Origin: Maribacter cobaltidurans
GTDB taxonomy: Bacteria > Bacteroidota > Bacteroidia > Flavobacteriales > Flavobacteriaceae
Assembly: GCF_002269385.1 (NCBI RefSeq)
Contig: NZ_CP022957.1
Coordinates: forward strand, 62,001-126,000
Length of the DNA: 64,000 bases
Direction of reading: 5' to 3'
The notes beneath the pieces were generated by a model, which saw only the letters and a program-made list of their open reading frames with translations, had not been told where the DNA came from and ran no database searches. Positions within the stretch are counted from its first letter, which is position 1; each line of letters opens with the position of its first letter. The translations under genes were made by a program, and so were the position numbers. This document shows, piece by piece, positions 17,191 to 30,132 of the stretch.

Positions 17191-18834
17191 ATGAAATTGG
17201 ACAGAATGGATTTAAAATTCAATCAAAACGAAGACAAAAACAAACTGCTTTTATCCGAATTACGTAAAAAGCTCGCGCAGGTGCATCTTGGTGGTGGCAA
17301 GGAAAAAATCGCCAAACAGCACGATCAAGGAAAGTTGACGGCCAGGGAACGTATAGATTATCTTCTTGACCCAAAATCCGAGCAATTGGAGATTGGAGCT
17401 TTCGTAGGGGACGGTATGTACGAGGAACATGGTGGTTGCCCATCTGGGGGCGTAGTCGTTAAAATCGGGTATGTTAAAAAAAGGCTTTGTATTGTAGTCG
17501 CCAATGATGCTACCGTGAAAGCGGGAGCATGGTTTCCCATTACGGCAAAGAAAAATTTAAGGGCACAAGAAATTGCCATAGAGAATAAACTTCCAATTAT
17601 ATACTTGGTGGATAGTGCAGGGGTCTATCTACCCATGCAGGATGAGATTTTTCCCGATAAGGAGCATTTTGGCCGAATTTTTAGGAACAATGCCATTATG
17701 AGCAGTATGGGCATCACCCAGATTTCAGCTGTCATGGGAAGCTGCGTAGCCGGTGGAGCCTATTTGCCCATCATGAGCGACGAGGCACTTATAGTGGACA
17801 AAACAGGTAGTATTTTCCTAGCTGGAAGTTATTTGGTGAAAGCTGCCATAGGGGAAAGCATCGATAATGAAACGTTGGGAGGAGCTACTACCCATTGTGA
17901 GATAAGTGGTGTTACGGATTACAAATCGAAAGACGATAAAGATGCCTTGGATACCATAAAGAACATTATGGATAAAATCGGGGAATTTCCCGTTGCCGGA
18001 TTCAATCGTTCCAAAGTGATAAAGCCAAAAGAGAATCCTGAAGATATCTATGGAATACTACCCGGTTCAAGAACCGAGCAATATGATATGATGGAAATCA
18101 TCAAAAGATTGGTGGACGATTCTGAATTTGAACCTTATAAAGATGGTTATGGACAGACCATAATAACAGGGTATGCCCGAATTGACGGGTGGGCCGTGGG
18201 TATCGTTGCAAATCAGAGAAAAGTAGTAAAAACAAAAAAGGGTGAAATGCAATTTGGCGGGGTCATTTATTCCGATTCGGCGGATAAGGCCACCCGATTC
18301 ATTGCCAATTGTAATCAGAAAAAAATCCCTTTGGTCTTCCTACAGGATGTTACAGGATTTATGGTGGGTAGTAAAAGCGAACATGGAGGGATTATTAAAG
18401 ATGGGGCCAAAATGGTAAATGCCGTTAGTAATTCCGTCGTTCCCAAATTCACGGTGGTTATTGGAAATAGTTACGGTGCCGGTAATTACGCTATGTGCGG
18501 CAAGGCCTATGACCCCAGATTGATTGTTGCTTGGCCCAGTGCAGAACTGGCCGTAATGAGTGGTAACTCGGCTGCCAAGGTACTTTTACAAATTGAAACG
18601 GCCTCTTTAAAAAAGAAAGGCGAGACCATAACCGAGAAAAAAGAAAAGGAACTCTTTGATAAAATAAAACAGCGGTATGACAATCAGGTTTCGCCCTATT
18701 ATGCAGCTTCCCGACTTTGGACCGATGCGGTTATAGACCCAAAAGATACTAGAAAATGGATTTCCATGGGCATTGAGGCCGCCAATCATGCACCCATTGA
18801 AAAACCTTTCAATATGGGGGTGTTGCAGGTTTAA
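17191..18834 (+). CDS. Biotin-dependent acyl-CoA carboxylase, carboxyltransferase (beta) subunit
   Basis: A 547-residue carboxyltransferase with both crotonase-like halves. The N-half has GGVVVKIGYV and VDSAGVYLPMQDEIFPD; the C-half has the GGIIKDGAKM and NSYGAGNYAMCGKAYDP oxyanion loops. DKEHFGRIF and GSCVAGGAYLPIMSDE resemble the 3-methylcrotonyl-CoA carboxylase beta branch more than propionyl-CoA carboxylase, so a role in leucine or acyl-CoA catabolism is likely. No biotin-carrying alpha subunit is adjacent. The ATG at 17191 is close behind TATCTTTA; the ATG at 17206 is an alternative. Its stop codon interlocks with that of the convergent plug protein gene (shared TTAA), and degraded copies of its last ~80 bp recur downstream. 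Confidence 0.88.
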   Translation: MKLDRMDLKFNQNEDKNKLLLSELRKKLAQVHLGGGKEKIAKQHDQGKLTARERIDYLLDPKSEQLEIGAFVGDGMYEEHGGCPSGGVVVKIGYVKKRLCIVVANDATVKAGAWFPITAKKNLRAQEIAIENKLPIIYLVDSAGVYLPMQDEIFPDKEHFGRIFRNNAIMSSMGITQISAVMGSCVAGGAYLPIMSDEALIVDKTGSIFLAGSYLVKAAIGESIDNETLGGATTHCEISGVTDYKSKDDKDALDTIKNIMDKIGEFPVAGFNRSKVIKPKENPEDIYGILPGSRTEQYDMMEIIKRLVDDSEFEPYKDGYGQTIITGYARIDGWAVGIVANQRKVVKTKKGEMQFGGVIYSDSADKATRFIANCNQKKIPLVFLQDVTGFMVGSKSEHGGIIKDGAKMVNAVSNSVVPKFTVVIGNSYGAGNYAMCGKAYDPRLIVAWPSAELAVMSGNSAAKVLLQIETASLKKKGETITEKKEKELFDKIKQRYDNQVSPYYAASRLWTDAVIDPKDTRKWISMGIEAANHAPIEKPFNMGVLQV

Positions 18835-20576
18835 TTGGAAACCAAGTTTGTTCCATTGGACACCGTGAACAACTGTTGGTTCACGTTCTTGGTCATCAAC
18901 TTGAATACCTTGATTTCCGCAGTCTGGGACGCTTTGCCATAATTATGGTATATAGTCGCCTTTAGGTAGGTAGGGGTCAAACTTTTATTACCAAGATAAT
19001 TTACATTTACCTGCCAGGATCCCTCAAAGGAATCATATATCAATTGCTCGGTAACGGAATACCCCACTTTCTTTTCATCGTATATTCGCTCGGCATTATC
19101 CGTTAATGTATGGTTCCATTTGAAATATTGGTTCTCGGGATGCACAAATTGTAGCTCGAACTCCGCCTCGCTATCTGCCCATTCGAACACGAGCCTCGTA
19201 CCCTTAAAGTCATCCTCCATGGCATATTTACGTAGATTTTTCTTCGACATCAGGTTGCCGCCTTCAAGGGCGATTAGGTTGTTCATTTCCAACCCCATTA
19301 AATTGGAAAACGTTCCCTGTTCATCGCTCATAAAACCACTTTCCAAAAGATATTCATAGCGCGTGTACAGATCCAGTGCTTTTTGGTAATCCCCGATCTG
19401 CCTGTAGCTTTCCGCCAAATCGAAATAGGACTGGCCATAATTGGGCCTTAAAACAAAAACATCCAAGTAGAGTTCGTTGGCCTTTTCATATTCCTGAAAA
19501 CTGTCATAAACGTAGGCCAAGGACTTAAGAGCCAACGGATTATTGTTAAAACGGTCAAAATGTTGTTCAACCAGGCTTTCAGCGAATTTTTTGTTTTTTA
19601 GCTCCATAAAATAACGGTAACTATCTATCAAATAATAAAATGACCCTGAATAATTGTACAGATAATTTTGAAAGACCGCTTCCGCTTCCTCTGCATTTTT
19701 ACTGGCATAAAGCTCCTTAAGGTAATCCGGGGCCCCTTCCATAAGCTTTTGTTGGGTAACCGCGCTGTTGTCGTAAAAATTATTGCGCAGCTTTGACTGA
19801 TCTACCAGGTCCTTATCGTATTTCGGAGCTGATAGGGTATTGATAACTACTACACCGTTTGATCCTGGCATCCCATATTTGGACGTAGCACTTGAACCAA
19901 CAAGAATAGACATTCTTTTTATAGAAAATGCACTTAGCCACATAGGAATATTGGTAAAAACTTGACCGTCAATATCAAAAATAGCACTATTACCTTGCAA
20001 AAAGGAAGACGATCCTCGGGTAAAAACGGCCCCATCACCAGTTATGCAATCTCCTTTGACCAAAACTCCAGGAAACCTAGACTTAAGTAGTTCTAAAATG
20101 CAAGCATCAACGGGCATGAGCTGATCTTTTGTTAGAACTCTTTCAACGATTCCTGAACTTTCTGAATCCATAATTCCATGAGTAGTCCTTATCAAAAACT
20201 TGTTGGTATCATACTCCTTCTCAAGCTCTTTCTGGGATTTTAACCTACGTGTTTGTTTGGTCACAGTAACCTCGTCCAATTGTTCGGTTTTTGGATACAT
20301 GGTGATGTTGAGAATACGGGTAATGTCCTCTACCAAGATTTCTACACTTTGCATGCCAATGTGAGAGAAGATGATCGTTTCGCCTTTTTGTGCCTCGATA
20401 CTAAAACTTCCCTTAGCATCCGTAATTGCCGTATTGAATGTAATGGATGTAGAAACAGCCACATCGGACATGGGTGCCGAATTGTCTCTTACCGTTCCCT
20501 TGATTGTTTTCAAACCCGTTTGTTGTGCAAGAGATATCAATGGAAGAACCAATAATACTAGTAGTAACTTTTTCAT
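18831..20576 (-). CDS. Exported CarboxypepD-like / barrel-less TonB-plug / TPR / DUF2135 protein, copy 1
   Basis: A 581-residue exported protein. Parts in order: signal peptide (1-18, cut after LAQ), CarboxypepD_reg-like domain (about 22-100), TonB-plug-like domain (about 140-255, with AIFDIDGQVFTNIPMWL then SATSKYGMPGSNGVVVINT), a helical segment with tetratricopeptide-like repeats (about 290-430), and a C-terminal beta-sandwich that I identify by pattern as DUF2135/YfaP-like (about 455-570). There is no beta-barrel, so it cannot be a normal receptor. A Cys pair (C-x17-C) lies in the plug. It is the most diverged of three near-identical copies and sits tail-to-tail against the carboxylase gene. 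Function unknown. Confidence 0.8.
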   Translation of the reverse strand: MKKLLLVLLVLPLISLAQQTGLKTIKGTVRDNSAPMSDVAVSTSITFNTAITDAKGSFSIEAQKGETIIFSHIGMQSVEILVEDITRILNITMYPKTEQLDEVTVTKQTRRLKSQKELEKEYDTNKFLIRTTHGIMDSESSGIVERVLTKDQLMPVDACILELLKSRFPGVLVKGDCITGDGAVFTRGSSSFLQGNSAIFDIDGQVFTNIPMWLSAFSIKRMSILVGSSATSKYGMPGSNGVVVINTLSAPKYDKDLVDQSKLRNNFYDNSAVTQQKLMEGAPDYLKELYASKNAEEAEAVFQNYLYNYSGSFYYLIDSYRYFMELKNKKFAESLVEQHFDRFNNNPLALKSLAYVYDSFQEYEKANELYLDVFVLRPNYGQSYFDLAESYRQIGDYQKALDLYTRYEYLLESGFMSDEQGTFSNLMGLEMNNLIALEGGNLMSKKNLRKYAMEDDFKGTRLVFEWADSEAEFELQFVHPENQYFKWNHTLTDNAERIYDEKKVGYSVTEQLIYDSFEGSWQVNVNYLGNKSLTPTYLKATIYHNYGKASQTAEIKVFKLMTKNVNQQLFTVSNGTNLVSN

Positions 20577-20684
20577 CTGTTATTATTTATTATTTATAAC
20601 GGCCATGCTTCGACTTCGCATAGCACAAGTATCTAATTCGCCAATGATAATCTCGACATAAAGATTCGGAATGACTTATTTCAT
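20577..20684. mobile_element. 108-bp insert at the start codon of copy 1, REP-like seed
   Basis: Copies 1 and 2 carry the same 108 bp between their start codon and the ancestral upstream sequence (ACCGATTGATTTAGTG), which in the third copy touches the start codon directly. The insert is bounded by TTTCAT on both sides (20571-20576 and 20679-20684), as for a target duplication, and contains CTTCGACTTCGCATAG near its left end and ATTCGGAATGAC at its right end, words typical of REP-like repeats in Bacteroidota. It codes for nothing. Confidence 0.55.
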
Positions 20685-20902
20685 AACCGATTGATTTAGT
20701 GTATTAAAGTTATGCAATAAAAGGATTGATACGCAGAACAATTCAATAATTTACAAATAATGAAAAGTCTTAATCTTCCTTTTAACGGCACCTAATTTCG
20801 ATTTGAAAGTGCTCCTGAACATTTGTTGGGGATTTCAATGGGGCATCGAAGCTGCCAATCATGCACCTATTTAGATACCATTTAGCATAGGGGTTTACAA
20901 GT
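20685..20902. repeat. Duplicated spacer with a decayed carboxylase-gene 3' end
   Basis: This spacer is homologous over its length to 22754-22978. The part at 20828-20906 aligns with the last ~80 bp of the acyl-CoA carboxylase gene (18755-18834), including the words GCCAATCATGCACC and GGGGTTTACAAGTTTA, but has lost the reading frame. It marks one edge of the duplicated unit. No gene is present. Confidence 0.75.
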
Positions 20903-22645
20903 TTAGTTGGAAACTAATTCTGCATTATTGAACACATTGAATAAATGCTGATTGACGTTCTTGGTCATCAACTTGAATACCTTGATTTCCGCAGTCTGGG
21001 ACGGTTTGCCATAATTATGGTAAATCGTCGCTTTTAGGTAGGTAGGGGTCAAACTTTTATTACCAAGATAATTTACGTTCACCTTCCAATCCCCCTCAAA
21101 GGAATCATATATCAATTGCTCGGTAACGGAATACCCCACTTTCTTTTCATCGTATATTTGCTCCGCGTTATCCTTTAATGTATGGTTCCATTTGAAATAT
21201 TGGTTATCGGGATGCACGAATTGTAGCTCGAACTCCGCCTCGCTATCCGCCCATTCGAACACGAGCCTTGTACCCTTAAAGTCATCATCCAGGGCATATT
21301 TACGTAGATTTTTCTTTGACATCAGATAACCGCCCCTAAGGGCTATAAGGTTGTTCATTTCCCAATTCATCAAGTTTGAAAATTCCCCTCGCTCATCGCC
21401 CACAAACCCGCTTTCCAAAAGGTAATCAAAGCGCGTGTAAAGGCCCACCGCTTTTTGGTAATCCCCGATCTGCCTGTAGCTATTTGCCAGATCCAAATAG
21501 GACTGGCCATAGTTTGGCCGTAGTATGAAAACTTCCTTGTACAGCTCATGTGCCTTTTCATATTCCTGAAAACTCTCGTAAACATAGGCAAGGGACTTGA
21601 GGGCCACGGGATTATCGTTAAAACGGCCAAAATTCTCCCGGATCAGACCTTCCGCAAATGTTTCGTTTTTTCGATCCATAAAATAGCGGTAACTGTCCAC
21701 CAAATAATAAAAAGACCCCGAGTATTTGGGTAGGTAATCTTGAAAGACCTTTTGCGCTTCCCCCACGGTCGTACTCGCATGGAGCTCCGTAAGGTAATCC
21801 GGTGCCCCTTCCATAAGCTTTTGTTGGGGTACCGCACCGTTGTCGTAAAAATTGTTGTTCAATCTTGCCAGATCTACCTGGTCCTTATCGTATTGGGGAC
21901 CTGGAATTGTATTGATTACCACTACCCCTCCAAATGCTTCCATTCCATATTTTACTAGCGAACTAAAACTTTTTAAGACAGCCAGTCTTTTGATCATAGT
22001 ATCATTTAGCCAAATAGGGGCTTCGGTAAAGATTTGACCATCAACGTCATAAATGGCTGGTCTAGGACTTGAAAAAGAAGTAGTTATACGCATCCAAATT
22101 GCTCCACCATTGAGACAATCTCCACGAACTATGACACCCGGAATTCTATATCTAAGCAACTCTAATACGCAAGATCCTGTAGGAATAATTTGGTCCTCGG
22201 TAAGCATATATATATTTGCTGCTCCTATATCAGGATTTATAATTCCATAAGCGGTCCTGATTAAACGCTTATTGGTTGTATACTCCGCCTCAAGCTCCCT
22301 CTGCGATTTTAATTTTCTTGCCCGTTCGGTCACCGTAACCTCGTCCAACCGTTCCGTCTTGGGATACATGGTAATGTTTAGAAAACGGGTCACTTCCTCT
22401 ACCCTAATTTCCACGGGTTCCATGCCCATATAGGTAAAGGTAATGGTCTCCCCTACTTCGGCCTCTATGGAATACTCTCCATTGGAATCCGTTACCTCCT
22501 TATTATTCGTAAGCGACGTAGATACGACAACATTGGGCATGGGTTCGGAATTGTCGCTGACCGTTCCCTTGATTGTTTTCAAACCATCTTCTTGTGCCAT
22601 TGAAGCCAATGGAAGGACCAATAATACTAGTAGTAACTTTTTCAT
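20903..22645 (-). CDS. Exported CarboxypepD-like / barrel-less TonB-plug / TPR / DUF2135 protein, copy 2
   Basis: A 580-residue protein with the same order of parts as copy 1: signal peptide (cut after SMAQ), CarboxypepD_reg-like domain, plug-like domain (AIYDVDGQIFTEAPIWL; KYGMEAFGGVVVINT), TPR-like helices, DUF2135-like C-terminal domain (GTRLVFEWADSEAEFELQF then VNVNYLGN and TIYHNYGKPSQTAEI). Against copy 3 it differs at about 2 positions between residues 19 and 135, about 43 of ~120 in the plug, and about 5 over the next ~150, so the plug has diverged alone. The Cys pair C-x17-C is kept. Function unknown; periplasmic or surface location follows from the signal peptide only. Confidence 0.8.
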   Translation of the reverse strand: MKKLLLVLLVLPLASMAQEDGLKTIKGTVSDNSEPMPNVVVSTSLTNNKEVTDSNGEYSIEAEVGETITFTYMGMEPVEIRVEEVTRFLNITMYPKTERLDEVTVTERARKLKSQRELEAEYTTNKRLIRTAYGIINPDIGAANIYMLTEDQIIPTGSCVLELLRYRIPGVIVRGDCLNGGAIWMRITTSFSSPRPAIYDVDGQIFTEAPIWLNDTMIKRLAVLKSFSSLVKYGMEAFGGVVVINTIPGPQYDKDQVDLARLNNNFYDNGAVPQQKLMEGAPDYLTELHASTTVGEAQKVFQDYLPKYSGSFYYLVDSYRYFMDRKNETFAEGLIRENFGRFNDNPVALKSLAYVYESFQEYEKAHELYKEVFILRPNYGQSYLDLANSYRQIGDYQKAVGLYTRFDYLLESGFVGDERGEFSNLMNWEMNNLIALRGGYLMSKKNLRKYALDDDFKGTRLVFEWADSEAEFELQFVHPDNQYFKWNHTLKDNAEQIYDEKKVGYSVTEQLIYDSFEGDWKVNVNYLGNKSLTPTYLKATIYHNYGKPSQTAEIKVFKLMTKNVNQHLFNVFNNAELVSN

Positions 22646-22753
22646 CTGTTAATATTTATTATTTATAACGGTCATGCTTCGACTTCGCATAGCACGAGTA
22701 TCTAATTCGCCAATGATAATCTAGATATAAAGATTCGGAATGACTTATCTCAT
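22646..22753. mobile_element. 108-bp insert at the start codon of copy 2, REP-like seed
   Basis: This is the second copy of the 108-bp insert described at 20577-20684, with a few base changes. It was inherited with the gene when the unit duplicated. The right-hand flank reads TCTCAT. Confidence 0.55.
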
Positions 22754-22978
22754 TAACGATTGATTTATTGTCTACTTAGTAGAAAGTTACGTAATAAATG
22801 GATTGATACGTAGAACAATTCAATAATTTACAAATAATGAAGAGTCTTAATCTTCCTTTTAACGGCACCCAATTTCGATTTTTAAGAGCTCCTGGACATT
22901 TATTGGTGGATTTGCTGCCAACCATGCACCTATTGAAAAGCCATTTAATATGAAGGTTGCAGGTTTAGCACAACCTAA
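22754..22978. repeat. Duplicated spacer with a second carboxylase-gene 3' echo
   Basis: Homologous to 20685-20902. Bases 22905-22967 are a better preserved copy of the carboxylase 3' end: translated in frame they still read close to AANHAPIEKPFNM, as in the real gene. No gene is present. Confidence 0.75.
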
Positions 22979-24100
22979 TTAATCCGCACGGTGCATAAGG
23001 GCATTGGCAAATTGCTGATCATTGATTTTCAATGCAGTATTTTCAAAACCAGGTTTCGTAAAAAATATGATGTCGTTTTTCTTTGCATGAATCTGATATC
23101 GGCCAGTTTGGTCGGAAATCGTCATTTCCTTTGTTCTTTTATTATAGACATTAACATTGGAAATCATCTGTCTATCATATATAGTAAATCCTGATAACAT
23201 TTTAAGTTCCCTTTCTTTTTTGTCAAGTCTCTTTTCTCGTTTGGCAGCTTCCTTTTGCGTAACCAAAAGTGCAGTTTCTAAATAAAAGGCCATATTCAAA
23301 TCTGAAATTTTTTCCCAACCATCTTGACTTGCGTATCTTATATATGACCCCTGATTATTGCTAGACGCCGCCAATACAAGAGCAACAGGATTCTTATCAT
23401 ACTGTTGAACAAGTTCCAATGAAACAAAAAAATCATCACTTACATAAATTTCATAAGGTTCTAAATCAACCTTTACAATCAGCTCATGTTTTTTCAAGGT
23501 ATGAAGAATATTTTTTTGGGAACCATTGAGATTTGCACCTGGAATATCACCATCCCTATAAACGTTTACACGTAAAAGCAAACTATCTGAAGGGTTGGCC
23601 AAAACTTCAAATTCCAATGATATTAATTTTCTTTTTTCCTTATCAGTGACAATTCTTGTGGCCATTTCAGCGCCCAAGGCCATATTATCTTTCCAATAAC
23701 CAAAATTATCAGGACTATAATTTCTATAACCTATATAATCAGAAACCTGAACCAAATCATTTCCATAAACCTCAACTTCGTTTAATACAATATTTTCAGG
23801 ACTCATAGATATAATAGATTGCCCATCAACTCCATTGGTAAGTTGCGATATGGGAATTTTAACGGTTTGATAGCCTAACGATGAAATCTGGACAATTTCA
23901 GATTGGGATATTTCCTTAGGGATCATAAAATTGAAATTACCTGATTCATCAGATGTTGTTCCAACTCCTTTTTTTAAAACCCCGATGTTTACGAAAGGTA
24001 TGGTTTCCTTAGTTTTTTTGTCAATTATTATACCTGTAACCTCTTGTTGTGCCATTGAAACCAATGGAAGAACGAACAAAAGAAAAAGCCACTTTTTCAT
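22979..24100 (-). CDS. Exported CarboxypepD-like companion protein (373 aa), unknown function
   Basis: Signal peptide (1-18, cut after SMAQ), CarboxypepD_reg-like domain (about 19-110, with TSDESGNFNFMIP), a middle beta-rich domain (about 125-275, with NPSDSLLLRVNVYRDGD and PYEIYVSDDFFVSLEL), then a second CarboxypepD-like unit (about 300-373) that stops early. The same order forms the N-terminal half of the 882-aa protein at 26107-28755. It starts 10 nt after the stop of copy 3 and so is in its operon. It is bounded by CAGGTTTA (22960-22967) and CAGGCTTA (24106-24113), which suggests it was inserted at the tail of that gene. Function unknown. Confidence 0.75.
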   Translation of the reverse strand: MKKWLFLLFVLPLVSMAQQEVTGIIIDKKTKETIPFVNIGVLKKGVGTTSDESGNFNFMIPKEISQSEIVQISSLGYQTVKIPISQLTNGVDGQSIISMSPENIVLNEVEVYGNDLVQVSDYIGYRNYSPDNFGYWKDNMALGAEMATRIVTDKEKRKLISLEFEVLANPSDSLLLRVNVYRDGDIPGANLNGSQKNILHTLKKHELIVKVDLEPYEIYVSDDFFVSLELVQQYDKNPVALVLAASSNNQGSYIRYASQDGWEKISDLNMAFYLETALLVTQKEAAKREKRLDKKERELKMLSGFTIYDRQMISNVNVYNKRTKEMTISDQTGRYQIHAKKNDIIFFTKPGFENTALKINDQQFANALMHRAD

Positions 24101-24110
24101 AAATACAGGC

Positions 24111-25853
24111 TTAATTAGAAACCAAGTTTGTTCTATTGGACACAGTGAACAACTGTTGGTTCACGTTCTTGGTCATCAACTTGAATACCTTGATTTCCGC
24201 AGTCTGGGACGGTTTGCCATAATTATGGTAAATGGTCGCTTTTAGGTAGGTAGGGGTCAAACTTTTATTACCAAGATAATTTACATTTACCTGCCAGGAT
24301 CCCTCAAAGGAATCATATATCAATTGCTCCGTAACGGAATACCCCACTTTTTTTTCATCGTATATTCGCTCGGAGTTATCCTTTAATGTATGGTTCCATT
24401 TGAAATATTGGTTATCGGGATGCACGAATTGTAGCTCGAACTCCGCCTCGCTATCCGCCCATTCGAACACGAGCCTTGTACCCTTAAAGTCATCCTCCAG
24501 GGCATATTTACGTAGATTCTTCTTGGACATCAGGTTGCCGCCTTCAAGGGCTATAAGGTTGTTCATTTCCCAATTCATCAAGTTTGAAAATTCCCCTCGC
24601 TCATCGCTCATAAAACCGTTTTCCAAAAGATATTCATAGCGCGTGTACAGATCCAGTGCTTTTTGGTAATCCCCGATCTGCCTGTAGCTATTTGCCAGAT
24701 CTAAATAGGACTGGCCATAATTGGGTCTTAGGATAAAGATTTCCTTGTACAGCTCATGGACCTTTTCATATTCCTGAAAACTCTCGTAAACATAGGCAAG
24801 GGACTTGAGGGCCACGGGATTATCGTTAAAACGGCCAAAATTCTCCCGGATCAGACCTTCCGCAAATGTTTCGTTTTTTCGACCCATAAAATAGCGGTAA
24901 CTGTCCACCAAATAATAAAAAGACCCAGAGTATTTGGGTAGGTAATCTTGAAAGACCTTTTGCGCTTCCTTCACGGTCGTACTCGCATGGAGCTCCGTAA
25001 GGTAATCCGGGGCCCCTTCCATAAGCTTTTGTTGGGGTACCGCACCGTTGTCGTAAAAATTGTTGCGCAATCTCGCCAGATCTACCTGGTCCTTATCGTA
25101 TTGGGGACCGGAAAGCGTATTGATTACCACTACTCCTCCAAACCCCTGCATACCATATTTTGCCGTCGAACCAAAACCTTTTAAGACAGCCAGTCTTTTA
25201 ATTGAAGTAACATTTAGCCAAATAGGGGGATTGGTTAAGATTTGACCATCAACGTCATAAATGGCCGGTCTCCTTAATATTAAAGAAGTTGCTGTGCGGA
25301 CCCAAACATTTCCGCCATTGAAACAATCGCCTGTAACCGTAATACCCGGAAATCGAGACCTAAGAACCTCTAAAAAACAAGACGCAAAGGGTGTAATTTG
25401 GTCTTCATTTAACATATTGATACTCCCAGAGGCCATATCCGTATCCATAATTCCATAAGCGGTCCTGATCAAACGCTTATTGGTTGTATACTCCGCCTCA
25501 AGCTCCCTCTGAGATTTTAATTTTCTTGCCCGTTCGGTCACCGTAACCTCGTCCAACCGTTCCGTCTTGGGATACATGGTAATGTTTAGAAAACGGGTCA
25601 CTTCCTCTACCCTAATTTCTACGGGTTCCATGCCCATATAGGTAAAGGTAATGGTCTCCCCTACTTCGGCCTCTATGGAATACTCTCCATTGGAATCCGT
25701 AACCTCCTTATTATTCGTAAGCGACGTAGATACGGCAACATTGGGCATGGGTGCGGAATTGTCGCTGACCGTTCCCTTGATTGTTTTCAAACCATCTTCT
25801 TGTGCCATTGAAGCCAATGGAAGAACAATCAATAGAAACAACAACTTTTTCAT
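24111..25853 (-). CDS. Exported CarboxypepD-like / barrel-less TonB-plug / TPR / DUF2135 protein, copy 3
   Basis: A 580-residue protein of the same architecture as copies 1 and 2 (signal peptide cut after SMAQ; plug with AIYDVDGQILTNPPIWL and KYGMQGFGGVVVINT; TPR-like helices; DUF2135-like end). It is a mosaic: residues 18-400 outside the plug are almost those of copy 2, while the last ~170 residues follow copy 1 (LDLYTRYEYLLE, GSWQVNVNYL and QQLFTVSN). Its upstream region lacks the 108-bp insert, so ACCGGTTGATTTAGTG abuts the ATG. The 373-aa companion gene follows 10 nt after its stop. Function unknown. Confidence 0.8.
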   Translation of the reverse strand: MKKLLFLLIVLPLASMAQEDGLKTIKGTVSDNSAPMPNVAVSTSLTNNKEVTDSNGEYSIEAEVGETITFTYMGMEPVEIRVEEVTRFLNITMYPKTERLDEVTVTERARKLKSQRELEAEYTTNKRLIRTAYGIMDTDMASGSINMLNEDQITPFASCFLEVLRSRFPGITVTGDCFNGGNVWVRTATSLILRRPAIYDVDGQILTNPPIWLNVTSIKRLAVLKGFGSTAKYGMQGFGGVVVINTLSGPQYDKDQVDLARLRNNFYDNGAVPQQKLMEGAPDYLTELHASTTVKEAQKVFQDYLPKYSGSFYYLVDSYRYFMGRKNETFAEGLIRENFGRFNDNPVALKSLAYVYESFQEYEKVHELYKEIFILRPNYGQSYLDLANSYRQIGDYQKALDLYTRYEYLLENGFMSDERGEFSNLMNWEMNNLIALEGGNLMSKKNLRKYALEDDFKGTRLVFEWADSEAEFELQFVHPDNQYFKWNHTLKDNSERIYDEKKVGYSVTEQLIYDSFEGSWQVNVNYLGNKSLTPTYLKATIYHNYGKPSQTAEIKVFKLMTKNVNQQLFTVSNRTNLVSN

Positions 25854-26106
25854 AACCGGTTGATTTAGTGTTTATCATGTAAGAAGTTACGCAATAAAAT
25901 GATATGTCCAAAGAAATGATTCATGTATTAATAAGTATTTAACAGTATTTTTATTGTTTCTAATAGTGTTACTATTAATTTAAACTGTCGTTTATCCTCA
26001 AGTAGTACATTAAAAGTTTCAGAAACGCTATGAAAGATTTAATATAGGTGATGCCCCTTTAATTTTGGAGTAAGCAAAAGTTCCCTTTGGCATCCATTGA
26101 AAAAAA
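25854..26106. other. Spacer upstream of copy 3
   Basis: The first ~50 nt are homologous to the upstream regions of copies 1 and 2 without the 108-bp insert; the rest is AT-rich and unique. At 26090-26104 there is a 15-nt word with one mismatch to the carboxylase tail (GCATCCATTGAAAAA), perhaps a last remnant of the duplicated unit. No gene or clear promoter box was found. Confidence 0.5.
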
Positions 26107-28755
26107 CTAATATCCTAGTTTTTCAGACTTGTTGATGGACCCTAATGGGATTTCCAAAAGTTCACGATTGACATTCTTAATATCCATCCTAAAAATATGT
26201 ATGGCGTCTTTTTGACTTTCGGTTCCATAATCCGTACTTACAGTGATTTTTAAATAGGTAGCCAACCCAGACCTGTTCCCTTTATAAAGGCAATTAATTT
26301 TCCACGTACCGTTATCCCCATAGATAAAGAAATCCTTACTGGTATATCCTTTTGACACTAGACTTTCGCCCAATTTTCCATCATTTGCGTTGGCCCATAA
26401 ACTTAGCAAATTGTTGTTGTCTATAAATTGAAAGTCCAATTCAGCCGTATCATCATTCCATTCCAAAAGAATCCTAATTCTGTCTTCATCCACATTCATT
26501 AGATTTGAAAGGGGAATATCCACTTCAGATTCCTTTATGTCCAATAGTGTTTTAACCTCAGTATTGACAACCTGCTGTAAGGCTTCGGGCGGTTTTGAAA
26601 AATAGCCCTCCTTGTTTAAATTATAGTACTTAGCATACAAATTCTTACCCCTTGCCTCCATACCGTTCGAGCTATAGGCATGGGCCAAATCTCTATACGA
26701 TTGCGGAGAATTCGATTTCAAAACAAATAGTTTTTTATAAATCTCAACAGCTAGCTCACTACCGATATACTTATCCAGCAAAAAGGCCAAGGACTTAAGA
26801 TAGGTGCCATCACTTTTAAACATAACCATACTTTTGTTTAATAATTGGTCTGTAAAGCTCTCCTCTTTCCAAAATTCCAAGAAGTAGTTTAAAGCATCAA
26901 TATTAAAATTGGCATTGGTTCCATACTTCGGTTCATACGTATTGTATATTGTCTGGGCCTCTTCAATATTTTTGGAAGCATAGATTTCCTTTAAAAAATC
27001 TGGCCAATTGCGCCGTGCCTCCTCTTCGCTAATGGCCTTTACCATCTCTGGTTTTTTAATTTTAGCATTACCATTTGTAGGCAAAAAGTTCCCAGACTTC
27101 GTATTTATAATTATTACACCTGCGTTACCTATGGACCCATATTTTGCTACCGCGGCCATGCCAGAAAGTACCGCAATACGTTTCACTTGAGACACATCTA
27201 TAAAATTGGGAAAATTAGGTACTATATGCCCATCAACCTCATAAACGGCAGGTTTTCGATTGGTAGAACCTGATTGTCTCAAATAGATATCAATAGTGCC
27301 TCCAAATAATTCATTGTCCCTAGTTGCAAAACCGGTAATTTGACCTCTTATTAAATTCACAAGGTTTGTCGCCCCATTTTTCGCCCCTGTTGAAAATTCA
27401 CTCTCATCCAAAATTTGCATGTCATACCCTTGGGACTCCTTACTATAGATACCAAAGGATGTTTTTATAATGTCTTTATCCACATCATAATCCCTAAACA
27501 ATTCTTCTTGTGTTCTTTTTTTCTTTCCAGAACTAGTTACAGTAACTTCTTCCAATTCAAAGACCTGTTCCTCAAGTGCTACGTTAATGGCAAAAGTTGT
27601 TTCCAATACGGTTCTAAGCTCACTTTGCATAGGAGGATAGGAGAATTCCAATTGGTCCCCAACTTTGGCCTTTATGGTATATCTACCGCTCTCATCAGTA
27701 GTGGTTACCTCTTTCGATAATAGATTTTGAACTTTTACCCCCCGCACCTTTTCGCCTTCTTTAAACACAAACCCACTAACCATACCAATATTCCTACCCA
27801 TACCTTGTAGTAATTGCTCACTAGAATAGTTAGATACTAAGTTTTCCTCTAACAATACTACATCCTCTTCATCTTCTGATTCTTCCAATAATGAAGTACT
27901 TAAAAAATATGTCAAGGCATCTTTTGGATGCCTTTTCCAATTCCCCTGACTTGCATACCTTCGAAAGGAGACCCCTGGCCTATCGTCCCCTGCAACTATA
28001 AGTCCATGTTCATTACCATAGCTTTTGATAAGCTCTATACCAATACTAAAATCATCATGTACGATAATATTGTATGGCCTTAAATCTACCCCTACCTTTC
28101 CTTTTTTTGTCTTTATGGTATAAAAAATATTCTTTGAGATAAGTTTACGTTCAGGGACTATAGTTTTACCATCATAGATATTAATGCGCACTAACAGACT
28201 ATCTGACTTGTTTTCCAAAATATAAAAGTAAAAGGTATTCAGCTGTCGTTCCTTTTTGGAAACATAGATTTTAGTGACTAGTTCACCTCCAAGTGCTCCT
28301 TTTCCCTCCCAAGAACCAATCTTTGACTTTCCCACATTAGAATATCCAACCATTTTTTCGGTCTTGTTCCTTCTTTTCCTTTTATCTGCGGTTAAAACTA
28401 CCTCATTTAAACTAATGATTTCCGGTTCCAATTTTACTTCAAAAAATTTAGGCAACCTTAGTACCTCCGTAAATGGTATTCTATATTCCTTGTAGGCAAG
28501 AGAGGATATTTTTAGGGTATCATTCTCTGTTAGTAAAGTTGAATCAAATGAAAAGTTAAAAGTGCCATCTTCCTCAGATACGATTCCAAGGCCACGTTCT
28601 ATAAAGCCTATGTTCACATAGGGCAAAGGAAGTCCCGTGTCCGCATCCGTTACGGTTCCCTTTATAACGGTTTGACCGATAATGATTCCATGGAACATTA
28701 TGACAAGCAATGTCAAGGCCCATAGTTTTCGGCTAATTTCGAATTTCCGTTTCAT
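26107..28755 (-). CDS. 882-aa fusion of the companion and plug/TPR/DUF2135 architectures
   Basis: An exported protein with a signal anchor or signal peptide (about 10-28). Residues ~30-330 match the 373-aa companion family (CarboxypepD_reg-like, then a middle domain with ENKSDSLLVRINIYDGK and PYNIIVHDDFSIGIEL). Residues ~345-882 match the 580-aa family: second CarboxypepD-like unit, plug (AVYEVDGHIVPNFPNFID; KYGSIGNAGVIIINT), TPR-like helices, DUF2135-like end (RILLEWNDDTAELDFQF). The Cys pair of the plug found in the short copies is absent. The fusion shows that the two separate gene types act together. It begins 30 nt after the M24 peptidase gene and may share its transcript. Function unknown. 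Confidence 0.8.
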   Translation of the reverse strand: MKRKFEISRKLWALTLLVIMFHGIIIGQTVIKGTVTDADTGLPLPYVNIGFIERGLGIVSEEDGTFNFSFDSTLLTENDTLKISSLAYKEYRIPFTEVLRLPKFFEVKLEPEIISLNEVVLTADKRKRRNKTEKMVGYSNVGKSKIGSWEGKGALGGELVTKIYVSKKERQLNTFYFYILENKSDSLLVRINIYDGKTIVPERKLISKNIFYTIKTKKGKVGVDLRPYNIIVHDDFSIGIELIKSYGNEHGLIVAGDDRPGVSFRRYASQGNWKRHPKDALTYFLSTSLLEESEDEEDVVLLEENLVSNYSSEQLLQGMGRNIGMVSGFVFKEGEKVRGVKVQNLLSKEVTTTDESGRYTIKAKVGDQLEFSYPPMQSELRTVLETTFAINVALEEQVFELEEVTVTSSGKKKRTQEELFRDYDVDKDIIKTSFGIYSKESQGYDMQILDESEFSTGAKNGATNLVNLIRGQITGFATRDNELFGGTIDIYLRQSGSTNRKPAVYEVDGHIVPNFPNFIDVSQVKRIAVLSGMAAVAKYGSIGNAGVIIINTKSGNFLPTNGNAKIKKPEMVKAISEEEARRNWPDFLKEIYASKNIEEAQTIYNTYEPKYGTNANFNIDALNYFLEFWKEESFTDQLLNKSMVMFKSDGTYLKSLAFLLDKYIGSELAVEIYKKLFVLKSNSPQSYRDLAHAYSSNGMEARGKNLYAKYYNLNKEGYFSKPPEALQQVVNTEVKTLLDIKESEVDIPLSNLMNVDEDRIRILLEWNDDTAELDFQFIDNNNLLSLWANANDGKLGESLVSKGYTSKDFFIYGDNGTWKINCLYKGNRSGLATYLKITVSTDYGTESQKDAIHIFRMDIKNVNRELLEIPLGSINKSEKLGY

Positions 28756-28785
28756 GCCCTCAAAATAAATAATTTTCAGAAACCT

Positions 28786-30132
28786 CTAATTCCCCTGATG
28801 CCCTTTTACCCTGGGAATCAACAACAATTCTGTTTGCCTGCCATTCACATACCTAAAACCATCTTGACCATAAAAGCCCGCTTCCTCCAACATGATTCGA
28901 ATGTCCCGCTCCCACTGAGGAATTGTAACCGTAGTGTTCAATTCAATGGCATACACCGTATTCGGGTTTAAGGGGTAGTTTTCACCATCGTCTTTCATAA
29001 CTCCTCCTTGACTATCCCACATACCTATGGTGGTGCCGGCGGAATGTCCGTACATTCCAAGCGGATGTGTATAAATGGAAGGCCTTAATCCAGCCGCCTT
29101 TGCTTCGGCAAGTGATTTCGCAAGTATCTCATTTCCCGTCCTTCCGACAATCATATTACTGGTCAAGAAATCCTGTACTTTATTCCCATCTTTAAGTCCG
29201 TTTACCAAAAAATCCGGAGCTTTCTTTTCTTCAGGCTTCAAAACATAAGCCAATTCTTGACAATCCGTATTCAAACGCAGATACGTGATCCCAAAATCAC
29301 AATGCAGCAAATCGCCAGGAAGGATGACCATCTCGTCAGGTTTATCAGAAAACGAATAAAATTCAGAATTCTGGTCAGCACTACTACGTTGTACATCTAC
29401 CGTAGGATGAAACCATGTTTCCAAACCTAAATCCGTAACCTTTTGGCGCATCCACCAGACCACATCGGAAGTCGTGGTTATGCCTGGAGTAATCACTTTT
29501 TCAGAGAAGGCCTCGGCAATGATGTCATGAGTAATATCCACCAATTGATTGTAGATTACCATTTCACGCTCCGTCCTAGTCTCTATCCATCGAACGGCCA
29601 ATTGTTCCGCGGATACTACTTTTGAAGTGAATTTTTTGGGTAAATTGGCCATAAAGGCATCATAATCGGTTTTATCCAATCCGTCTGCAATGTTATGGTC
29701 CTTGGAATAGTTGAGCCCAATTCGCTTTGGGTTTCTTTCCGAAATCAACTCCATCAATCGTTTCCACTGGTCCGGTTGCTTTTCCTTTTCCCAAGCTGAT
29801 TCAATATTTTTTCCCACGTTGTAACGAGCTACTGCCAATTTTTCAATAGTGTTCTTGCTCTTGTCCCTATAAAATAAAAGAATAGTCCTTCTTCTTGCAT
29901 TCAACCAGGTGGCTGGTAACATGGTGCGCAGGACCGGGTCCTCATTATATTCCCTGGATATCACTACCCACATATCGATGTTCGCGGCATCCATGAGTTT
30001 TGGCAAAAGGTTATTGAAACGGTCATCAAGGATTTCATCTACAACTTTTGCACGTTCTTGTTCATTTAAAATTCTTTGTGCATTAAGATTAAATGCGAAG
30101 CATAAGATCAAAAAGAATAAAGTTCTTCTCAT
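28786..30132 (-). CDS. Exported M24 family metallopeptidase (Xaa-Pro aminopeptidase-like)
   Basis: A 448-residue protein with a signal peptide (1-18, cut after NLNAQ), a creatinase-type N-terminal domain and a pita-bread M24 domain. Metal ligands can be traced: Asp in LLHCDFGITY, Asp in RLNTDCQEL, His in THPLGMYGHSAGT, Glu in AIELNTTV and the late Glu in MLEEAGF. The family removes N-terminal residues ahead of proline; here it would act in the periplasm. It follows menE by 18 nt, so it is probably transcribed with menC-CPBP-menE. Confidence 0.87.
   Translation of the reverse strand: MRRTLFFLILCFAFNLNAQRILNEQERAKVVDEILDDRFNNLLPKLMDAANIDMWVVISREYNEDPVLRTMLPATWLNARRRTILLFYRDKSKNTIEKLAVARYNVGKNIESAWEKEKQPDQWKRLMELISERNPKRIGLNYSKDHNIADGLDKTDYDAFMANLPKKFTSKVVSAEQLAVRWIETRTEREMVIYNQLVDITHDIIAEAFSEKVITPGITTTSDVVWWMRQKVTDLGLETWFHPTVDVQRSSADQNSEFYSFSDKPDEMVILPGDLLHCDFGITYLRLNTDCQELAYVLKPEEKKAPDFLVNGLKDGNKVQDFLTSNMIVGRTGNEILAKSLAEAKAAGLRPSIYTHPLGMYGHSAGTTIGMWDSQGGVMKDDGENYPLNPNTVYAIELNTTVTIPQWERDIRIMLEEAGFYGQDGFRYVNGRQTELLLIPRVKGHQGN

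Follow-up and report, generated by a model that had tools for sequence, protein, structure and literature searches.

TonB is known for opening outer-membrane transporters, and a locus of Maribacter cobaltidurans raises the question of what a transporter-type plug domain might do in exported proteins that have no barrel. The stretch of DNA analyzed (assembly GCF_002269385.1, contig NZ_CP022957.1, positions 62,001-126,000 of the forward strand) is 64,000 nt long and is referred to here as the window; all coordinates below are positions in it. Five adjacent genes on its minus strand form a tandem array, and four of them join a CarboxypepD_reg domain (CTD, PF13715), a TonB-box-like motif and a plug to a TPR-like part and a DUF2135-type C-terminus. 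The reading that we favor, at a probability of about 0.45 on the basis of sequence comparisons, is that these proteins are soluble, reside in the periplasm and are clients of TonB, that their N-terminal part varies and serves recognition while the C-terminal part is constant, and that they arose from an ancestor of the order VIT-vWA-(CTD, box, plug)-TPR-DUF2135. Beyond the original prediction, which described exported barrel-less proteins that reuse the plug, the analysis adds a retained TonB box, a likely VIT-vWA-TPR-DUF2135 origin, a fixed locus, and one relative in which a TonB_C domain takes the place of box and plug. The parts are known individually; their combination was not found in the literature searched, and no published description of barrel-less plug proteins of this kind was found among titles and abstract openings, with subscription literature mostly outside that scope.

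Plug domains behind which no barrel stands

The anatomy of the four plug-bearing genes is well supported. Gene 1 (18831..20576, minus strand like all five) encodes 581 residues in the order signal peptide, CTD, TonB-box-like motif, plug (~19824-20177), TPR-like part and DUF2135-type C-terminus, and the same order is found in the 580-aa products of gene 2 (20903..22645, plug ~21896-22246) and gene 4 (24111..25853). In gene 4 the box-like motif, RLDEVTV, lies at 25539..25559 (residues 99-105), the plug at 25104..25454 (residues 134-250) and the DUF2135-type domain at 24144..24500 (residues 452-570). Gene 5 (26107..28755) is longer, with 882 residues arranged as CTD, NHmid (27841-28377), a further CTD, box motif, plug (~27088-27477), TPR-like part and DUF2135-type end; this order matches that of NHmid-vWA relatives minus their vWA. 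The original prediction assigned the CTD-plug-TPR-DUF2135 order to five adjacent exported genes, and its coordinates are exact, but only four genes have this order. Gene 3 (22979..24100, 373 aa) instead consists of a CTD, an L.EV.V motif, NHmid (190 aa, ~23201-23773) and a second CTD, and no plug, TPR or DUF2135 was found in it. NHmid, which genes 3 and 5 share, has no Pfam name, and its single PDB match, to a probable RNA-binding protein, is doubtful (E 0.0045).

Searches with the named families gave clear results for the CTD, whose scores in the five proteins (42.9-71.4 bits) all exceed the Pfam cut-off of 32.2, and values just below or above the cut-off, depending on the search, for plug and DUF2135. 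In the Pfam scan of the window proteins, PF07715 (cut-off 23.9) reached 19.7 bits in gene 4 and 21.4 bits in gene 5 and was not reported for genes 1 and 2; in a genome-wide search at E 0.001 the plug of gene 5 was above the cut-off at 26.1 bits, and the other three plug genes were absent. In three of the four plug proteins the assignment accordingly comes from a family profile and not from the Pfam cut-off. This profile (A2), an alignment of 88 relatives, matches the SusC structure at E 1e-22, and its best stretch places residues 141-272 on SusC 123-254, which is the SusC plug; further matches are to RagA (E 4e-18) and the colicin I receptor (E 4e-5). This match shows that the plug is real, and the identity that had been predicted for the region behind the CTD is borne out. 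DUF2135 (PF09906, cut-off 22) scored 19.2-20.9 bits in the three ~580-aa proteins in the Pfam scan and 23.2-24.8 bits in the genome search. The DUF2135-type C-terminus that had been proposed for the array can hence be kept for genes 1, 2 and 4, is assigned in gene 5 by similarity to the other copies only (12.9 bits), and does not apply to gene 3. TPR families were above their cut-offs in genes 2 and 4 and below in gene 1 (best 23.7 bits); none was reported in gene 5, whose TPR-like part is again assigned by similarity to the other copies.

No beta-barrel family was found in any of the five proteins at E up to 10 in Pfam, in agreement with their earlier description as barrel-less. The 22-strand outer-membrane barrel of a SusC-type transporter is missing, and TPR-like and DUF2135-type parts stand behind the plug. 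Together with the SusC profile match, the domain scans support the view of exported barrel-less proteins that reuse the plug, so that at minimum the receptor annotations of such genes need correction. The resemblance to SusC/RagA proteins (TIGR04056; PF13715 plus PF07715) is one of clear homology, both having the order CTD (NTE), TonB-box motif, plug; the window proteins differ in having no barrel, in ~23 extra alignment columns between box and plug, and in carrying the TPR-like part and DUF2135 in place of the barrel. The location of the proteins had been given as periplasmic or at the surface. The second appears unlikely, because only 2 proteins in a set of 207 distinct plug-DUF2135 proteins fit a simple lipobox pattern, and because Pfam and NCBIfam scans of the five array proteins gave no type IX sorting domain.

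A SusC-type plug without its barrel could also act on the barrels of other proteins. According to this explanation, which we consider unlikely, the proteins would plug, guard or chaperone the barrels of TonB-dependent transporters in trans during assembly, each plug variant serving other barrels. Both the type of the plug and its differences among copies would fit, and one report names a CTD protein, BamP, as a component of the Flavobacterium BAM complex (PMC12611786). The likeness to BamP, however, is limited to the CarboxypepD_reg-like N-terminal domain and adjoining residues, within the first 116-124 residues of the 580-aa proteins, and BamP is a chain of 249 residues. Membership in the BamP family (NCBIfam NF053692) was rejected at 30.8-47.8 bits against a cut-off of 230, with matches that cover only the CTD and adjoining residues. 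Conserved plug columns are moreover altered, from DIESI.VLKDASA in transporters to NI.RIAIL..LA, and the same module is found on VIT-vWA and YfbK-type vWA proteins, for which we know of no role in assembly.

A TonB-box-like motif and its vWA-bearing relatives

If the proteins are not transporters, the motif between CTD and plug deserves attention. Its consensus is LDEVxV; across the 88 rows of the family alignment L100 never varies, and the consensus residue is kept in 86 rows at V103, in 84 at V105 and in 79 at E102. The mean entropy of residues 99-105 (0.82 bits) is the lowest of six stretches compared in the 88-row alignment, the others being the CTD (1.96), the stretch behind the box (1.85), the plug (1.95), the TPR part (2.02) and DUF2135 (1.40). 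In the SusC protein Bt1763, the box, VDEVVV, sits directly behind the same type of CTD and was seen by NMR to be unstructured; mutants in which it was deleted or replaced by alanine showed a growth defect like that of a SusD deletion, which the authors of the study read as loss of function (PMC7782687). The gene 4 box agrees in motif and position with this mutationally tested box. Since the Bt1763 box is unstructured and lies behind the CTD, the fold of the CTD does not explain the conservation of the motif.

The box and plug are not confined to the array. The plug-TPR-DUF2135 unit was found behind varied N-terminal parts (CTD only, vWA-CTD, NHmid-vWA-CTD and VIT-vWA-CTD), and VIT-vWA-TPR-DUF2135 proteins of ~1000 aa occur across the phylum Bacteroidota. 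PF09906 has matches in 25 of 296 genomes, including that of the window, and a TPR-DUF2135 profile (A5) in 37 of 395 (in class, 26 of 395), where some matches are members of the tandem family; with A5 the four plug-bearing genes of the window are found at E values from 3.7e-18 to 7.5e-28. The phylum sample comprises 20 of the 24 places outside the window's genome given by the PF09906 search, plus two later ones; G311 and G127 were left out, as were the A5 matches in G624, G752 and G859 and weak or fragmentary ones. In a quick, unrooted tree of 129 rows, which holds about a quarter of the CTD-only rows and in which many forks are open, the 49 VIT-class rows are set apart from all others by one branch (SH-aLRT 100). 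A second group (SH-aLRT 99) unites 39 of 42 CTD-only rows, including the window's, with the 7 NHmid-plug rows, and most vWA and NHmid-vWA rows lie between these groups. Two of the 11 VIT-class loci of the family draw are at the same chromosomal place as the arrays.

At the level of sequence, kinship of the array with VIT-vWA-TPR-DUF2135 proteins is well supported: the TPR-DUF2135 part is homologous, and in many of these proteins the linker that joins vWA to TPR contains box and plug. The window proteins differ in that neither VIT nor vWA was found in any of the five, and in that acidic residues of DUF2135 appear to be replaced. We infer a direction in which VIT was lost first, then vWA, with tandem duplication afterwards. 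That the array replaces the VIT gene as a general rule was rejected, both being present in four sampled genomes (G018, G086, G120 and G135). D199, D201 and D228 are invariant in the DUF2135-type domain of the VIT class and seem to be replaced in the window family when the A5 and A2 alignments are compared; a metal site may possibly have been lost there. DUF2135 of the YfaP type has been linked elsewhere to alpha-2-macroglobulin-like proteins, and the original prediction drew on this link. No MG2 or A2M family was found among the nine proteins of the window that were scanned; the association that was found is with VIT-vWA proteins instead.

The linkers of 38 VIT-class proteins, one of which breaks off ahead of its VIT part, show how box and plug occur in these relatives (L220, without a DUF2135-type match by profile, is uncounted, and L205, at a contig end, is excluded from the linker count). 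By eye, full box and plug are present in L201, L213, L222, L233, L238 and L239; CTD, box and at most a partial plug in L212, L219, L235 and L237; box and the first part of the plug only in L209, L211, L216, L218, L221 and L231; and plug-like fragments without a box in L202, L203, L206 and L223, the remainder having none of these parts. In the family draw, profiles found CTD and plug in 10 of 11 VIT-class proteins (L059-L067 and L070, not L068). The simple pattern E[VIL]V[VIL] occurs in 18 of 37 linkers. Among linkers without the C-terminal half of the plug it occurs in 13 of 32 (12 of 31 without L222, whose plug the pattern missed), compared with a mean of 1.5 and a maximum of 7 in 2000 shuffles and with a single occurrence among the 32 TPR parts of these proteins. 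In L214 a TonB_C domain (25.0 bits, cut-off 24.6) stands in the linker instead of box and plug.

Several observations weigh against a role with TonB. By pattern, 19 of the 37 VIT-class linkers have no box, and TonB docking would therefore be lineage-specific; the limits of the linkers were themselves set by a simple pattern, or at 300 residues where the pattern failed. The comparison of linkers with shuffles is not a probability, because the 12 partial cases stem from only seven families of the draw and the rows are not independent. Behind the motif of L208 and L224 there is nothing plug-like, so that it may be there by chance, and some reduced linkers may be products of recent decay. TonB_C was found in 1 of 38 VIT-class proteins, barely above its cut-off. 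Finally, L.EV.V also stands ahead of NHmid in 35 of 37 NHmid-only proteins without a plug; either these would be TonB clients as well, or the motif has another role.

The boxless linkers and the motif ahead of NHmid speak for an explanation in which TonB has no part. In such an explanation, which we hold to be somewhat doubtful, the plug would be a general scaffold for binding proteins or ligands in a soluble periplasmic protein, and the box an ordinary beta-strand for another partner; the concentration of differences between genes 2 and 4 in the plug would suit it too. It fits less well with the one NMR structure described, in which the motif is outside the folded CTD (PMC7782687), and with the retention of the motif in several lineages without the CTD or without the whole plug and the single appearance of TonB_C in the same linker.

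Variation among the copies

What sets one copy apart from another bears on the recognition part that the TonB-client reading assumes. The block of greatest difference between genes 2 and 4 is the plug: 91 of 351 bases differ there, whereas the CTD has 4 differences in 237 bases, the box region 2 in 105, and the two stretches after the plug 37 in 570 and 31 in 420 (CTD and box together, 6/342, versus plug, Fisher 6e-23). A scan places the divergent block at codons 138-237, with a z of 10.35, whereas 1000 permutations reached 4.49 at most. Since dS is far higher in the plug (0.59) than in the neighboring parts (CTD 0.04, box region 0.09, and 0.20 and 0.24 in the two stretches after the plug), the plug of this pair has, by these estimates, either escaped homogenization or been exchanged. 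The plug dN/dS is 0.29-0.43 in three window pairs, compared with 0-0.37, mostly 0.1-0.3, in other parts, which suggests that the plug is less constrained, with no sign of positive selection.

These values also bear on the view that the plug is a decaying passenger of the linker that now acts as a mere spacer. The VIT-class linkers, which show every stage from full plug to nothing, would be consistent with such decay, but the plug dN/dS in the window pairs and the retention of the invariant residues G203, G234, G240, N245 and T246 in the 88 tandem-family rows make it improbable for the array.

The pattern seen in genes 2 and 4 is not general. The block scan covered 18 tandem pairs, hand-picked from a longer list of within-locus pairs; the extreme block was a high one over the plug in 6, a low one in the C-terminal half in 10, and elsewhere in 2. 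The six are window 4/2, window 4/1, L087_4/3, L094_5/6, L094_5/7, where the high block spans the plug and much of the CTD, and L156_7/5. In the L044 pair the high block is just behind the plug. In pairs with a DUF2135 identity of at least 90%, mean plug identity is 54% for the 6 pairs within loci and 80% for the 29 pairs between loci. To the points against the TonB-client reading must be added that the mean identity over all within-locus pairs is 44% for both CTD and plug, 46% for the TPR part and 61% for DUF2135, so that the plug is no more variable than the CTD; that the z of L156_7/5 (4.1) is not beyond its permutation maximum (4.2); and that in L094_7/4 the high block is in the CTD and the plug is the most alike part. 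The proposal that the plug is a variable binding part thus stands for genes 2 and 4 and a few other pairs, but the CTD is equally variable in most pairs tested. As a general rule, judging from these alignments, the N-terminal part is variable and the C-terminal part even, with plug-only variation confined to few pairs, including the window's. Hypervariability of the plug alone in every tandem pair was rejected, the high plug block being extreme in only 6 of the 18 scanned pairs.

Tandem copies with a variable N-terminal part and uneven homogenization would also be compatible with a role as decoys, or with an immunity-like function, against bacteriocins or phages whose route of entry is a TonB-dependent receptor, and binding of invading proteins had indeed been suggested for the array. 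The suggestion found no support: the best PADLOC result was a 24-residue match in one protein (E 0.005), nothing of note, and anti-phage defense was rejected as a candidate. With the locus fixed between housekeeping-looking genes besides, we regard such a role as highly improbable.

Under the preferred reading, as soluble TonB clients, the array proteins would have become soluble and periplasmic through the loss of VIT and vWA from the VIT-vWA-(CTD, TonB box, plug)-TPR-DUF2135 ancestor. The box behind the CTD would still pair with the C-terminal domain of TonB, and the proton-driven ExbBD-TonB motor would engage, and perhaps pull, the soluble box-plug proteins. The barrel-free plug would serve as a recognition module that varies from copy to copy, and the constant TPR-DUF2135 part would bind, in the periplasm or on the inner side of the outer membrane, a partner shared by the copies. 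Pulling would release or remodel whatever the plug holds. If true, the TonB motor would have soluble periplasmic proteins as a further class of clients, and this would be an additional reason for Bacteroidota to keep large TonB sets. In the arrays the plug varies naturally within a frame that stays constant, which makes recognition by a barrel-free plug testable.

A fixed locus and parallel modules

Is the array a peculiarity of one genome? A match at E 1e-20 was found in 44 of 149 Flavobacteriaceae genomes drawn. A scan of named genomes gave 268 relatives; the 80 best of these, from 75 loci, were retained and belong mostly to Maribacter, Croceitalea, Croceivirga, Robiginitalea, Muriicola, Muricauda/Allomuricauda/Flagellimonas or other Flavobacteriaceae. 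The survey of neighbors in other Flavobacteriaceae, which the original prediction had proposed as a check, revealed a fixed locus: 75 of 115 loci, a count that includes some genomes twice, are syntenic, with a carboxyltransferase gene within three genes on one side and an M24 peptidase gene or its conserved neighbor on the other. In the window these conserved flanks are the carboxyltransferase gene at 17191..18834 (plus strand; PF01039, 485.7 bits) and the M24 metallopeptidase family gene at 28786..30132 (minus strand; PF00557, 36.8 bits). The remaining 40 loci comprise 9 of the VIT class, 4 of the NHmid-vWA class, 13 too near a contig end to judge and 14 elsewhere. The syntenic loci carry 1-6 genes with a DUF2135-type end and 0-2 NHmid-only genes. 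In the Maribacter halichondriae array (L105:3825-14306) there are seemingly broken copies, with plug, TPR and DUF2135 in separate frames; copies would therefore also be lost. Among phage and plasmid records no match covered 80% of the 580-aa query, and a match on an Aureibacter plasmid, 'VIT domain-containing protein', covers its residues 321-561.

A gene for a CTD-plug-YfbK-type vWA protein lies within the examined stretch at 17 of the 75 syntenic loci (confirmed by Pfam for two, L044 and L073); YfbK_C has no match in the window's genome. These proteins resemble those of the array in their barrel-less CTD-plug module and their neighborhood, but have vWA and YfbK_C where the window proteins have TPR-DUF2135. 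In a recent article, vWA proteins with a YfbK-like fold, tied to a Ton/Tol-type motor, are proposed as motor-driven force transducers (PMC12204202). As described there, they are tethered to the inner membrane and would drive force, whereas the window proteins are predicted to be soluble and would receive it. The proposal makes a vWA-derived TonB client less far-fetched and is not evidence for such a client (PMC12204202).

A further parallel comes from M56/BlaR1 proteins of the window's genome. L158:704-2392 (G000:C1:563000-567500) encodes an M56 peptidase (52.9 bits) that ends in half a plug (Pfam Plug 20.0 bits and TIGR04057 27.1 bits, both below cut-off), and L240:1569-3473 (G000:C1:1194000-1200500) a BlaR1-like protein (weak NCBIfam matches) that contains TonB_C twice (66.8 bits) and has a CTD-like part at its end. 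By eye, each adjoins a BlaI-like gene, and L240 also a receptor-like gene. With L214 among the VIT-class linkers and L158 versus L240 among the M56/BlaR1 proteins, box/plug and TonB_C appear, in this small sample, to occur as alternatives on two unrelated scaffolds. It can tentatively be proposed that in Bacteroidota TonB also serves a class of clients that are not transporters but soluble or inner-membrane proteins, made up of VIT-vWA-TPR-DUF2135 proteins and their barrel-less plug descendants, YfbK-type vWA proteins and M56/BlaR1 peptidases, in which box plus plug or TonB_C would be interchangeable couplers to the TonB motor and tandem arrays would diversify the plug as a specificity module. 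The array hints that the TonB energy system may act on soluble proteins besides transporters.

Between the genes of the array, the stretches 20577-20902 and 22646-22978, ahead of genes 1 and 2, resemble each other over most of their length by eye, and ~110 extra bases seem to be present ahead of these two genes, between an upstream stretch shared with gene 4 and the start codon. No inverted repeats of at least 40 bases were found within 18700-28900, and invertible switching of the array was rejected on this ground. The flavobacterial promoter consensus, TTG-N17-23-TANNTTTG, was not found upstream of genes 1, 2, 4 and 5.

Other modules related to the array were noticed in passing. L160:1927-2355 encodes a 142-aa protein, lipoprotein-like by eye, that consists of little beyond a plug (25.1 bits, above cut-off). 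In L157:905-2839 a hydrolase-like domain (DLH, 21.4 bits) is fused to a CTD and an NHmid-like end, and the next gene is sigma-factor-like by eye. In L159:1769-4501 a receptor gene of the window's genome is seemingly split into two frames, one of 406 aa and one of at least 476 aa that runs to the end of the stretch.

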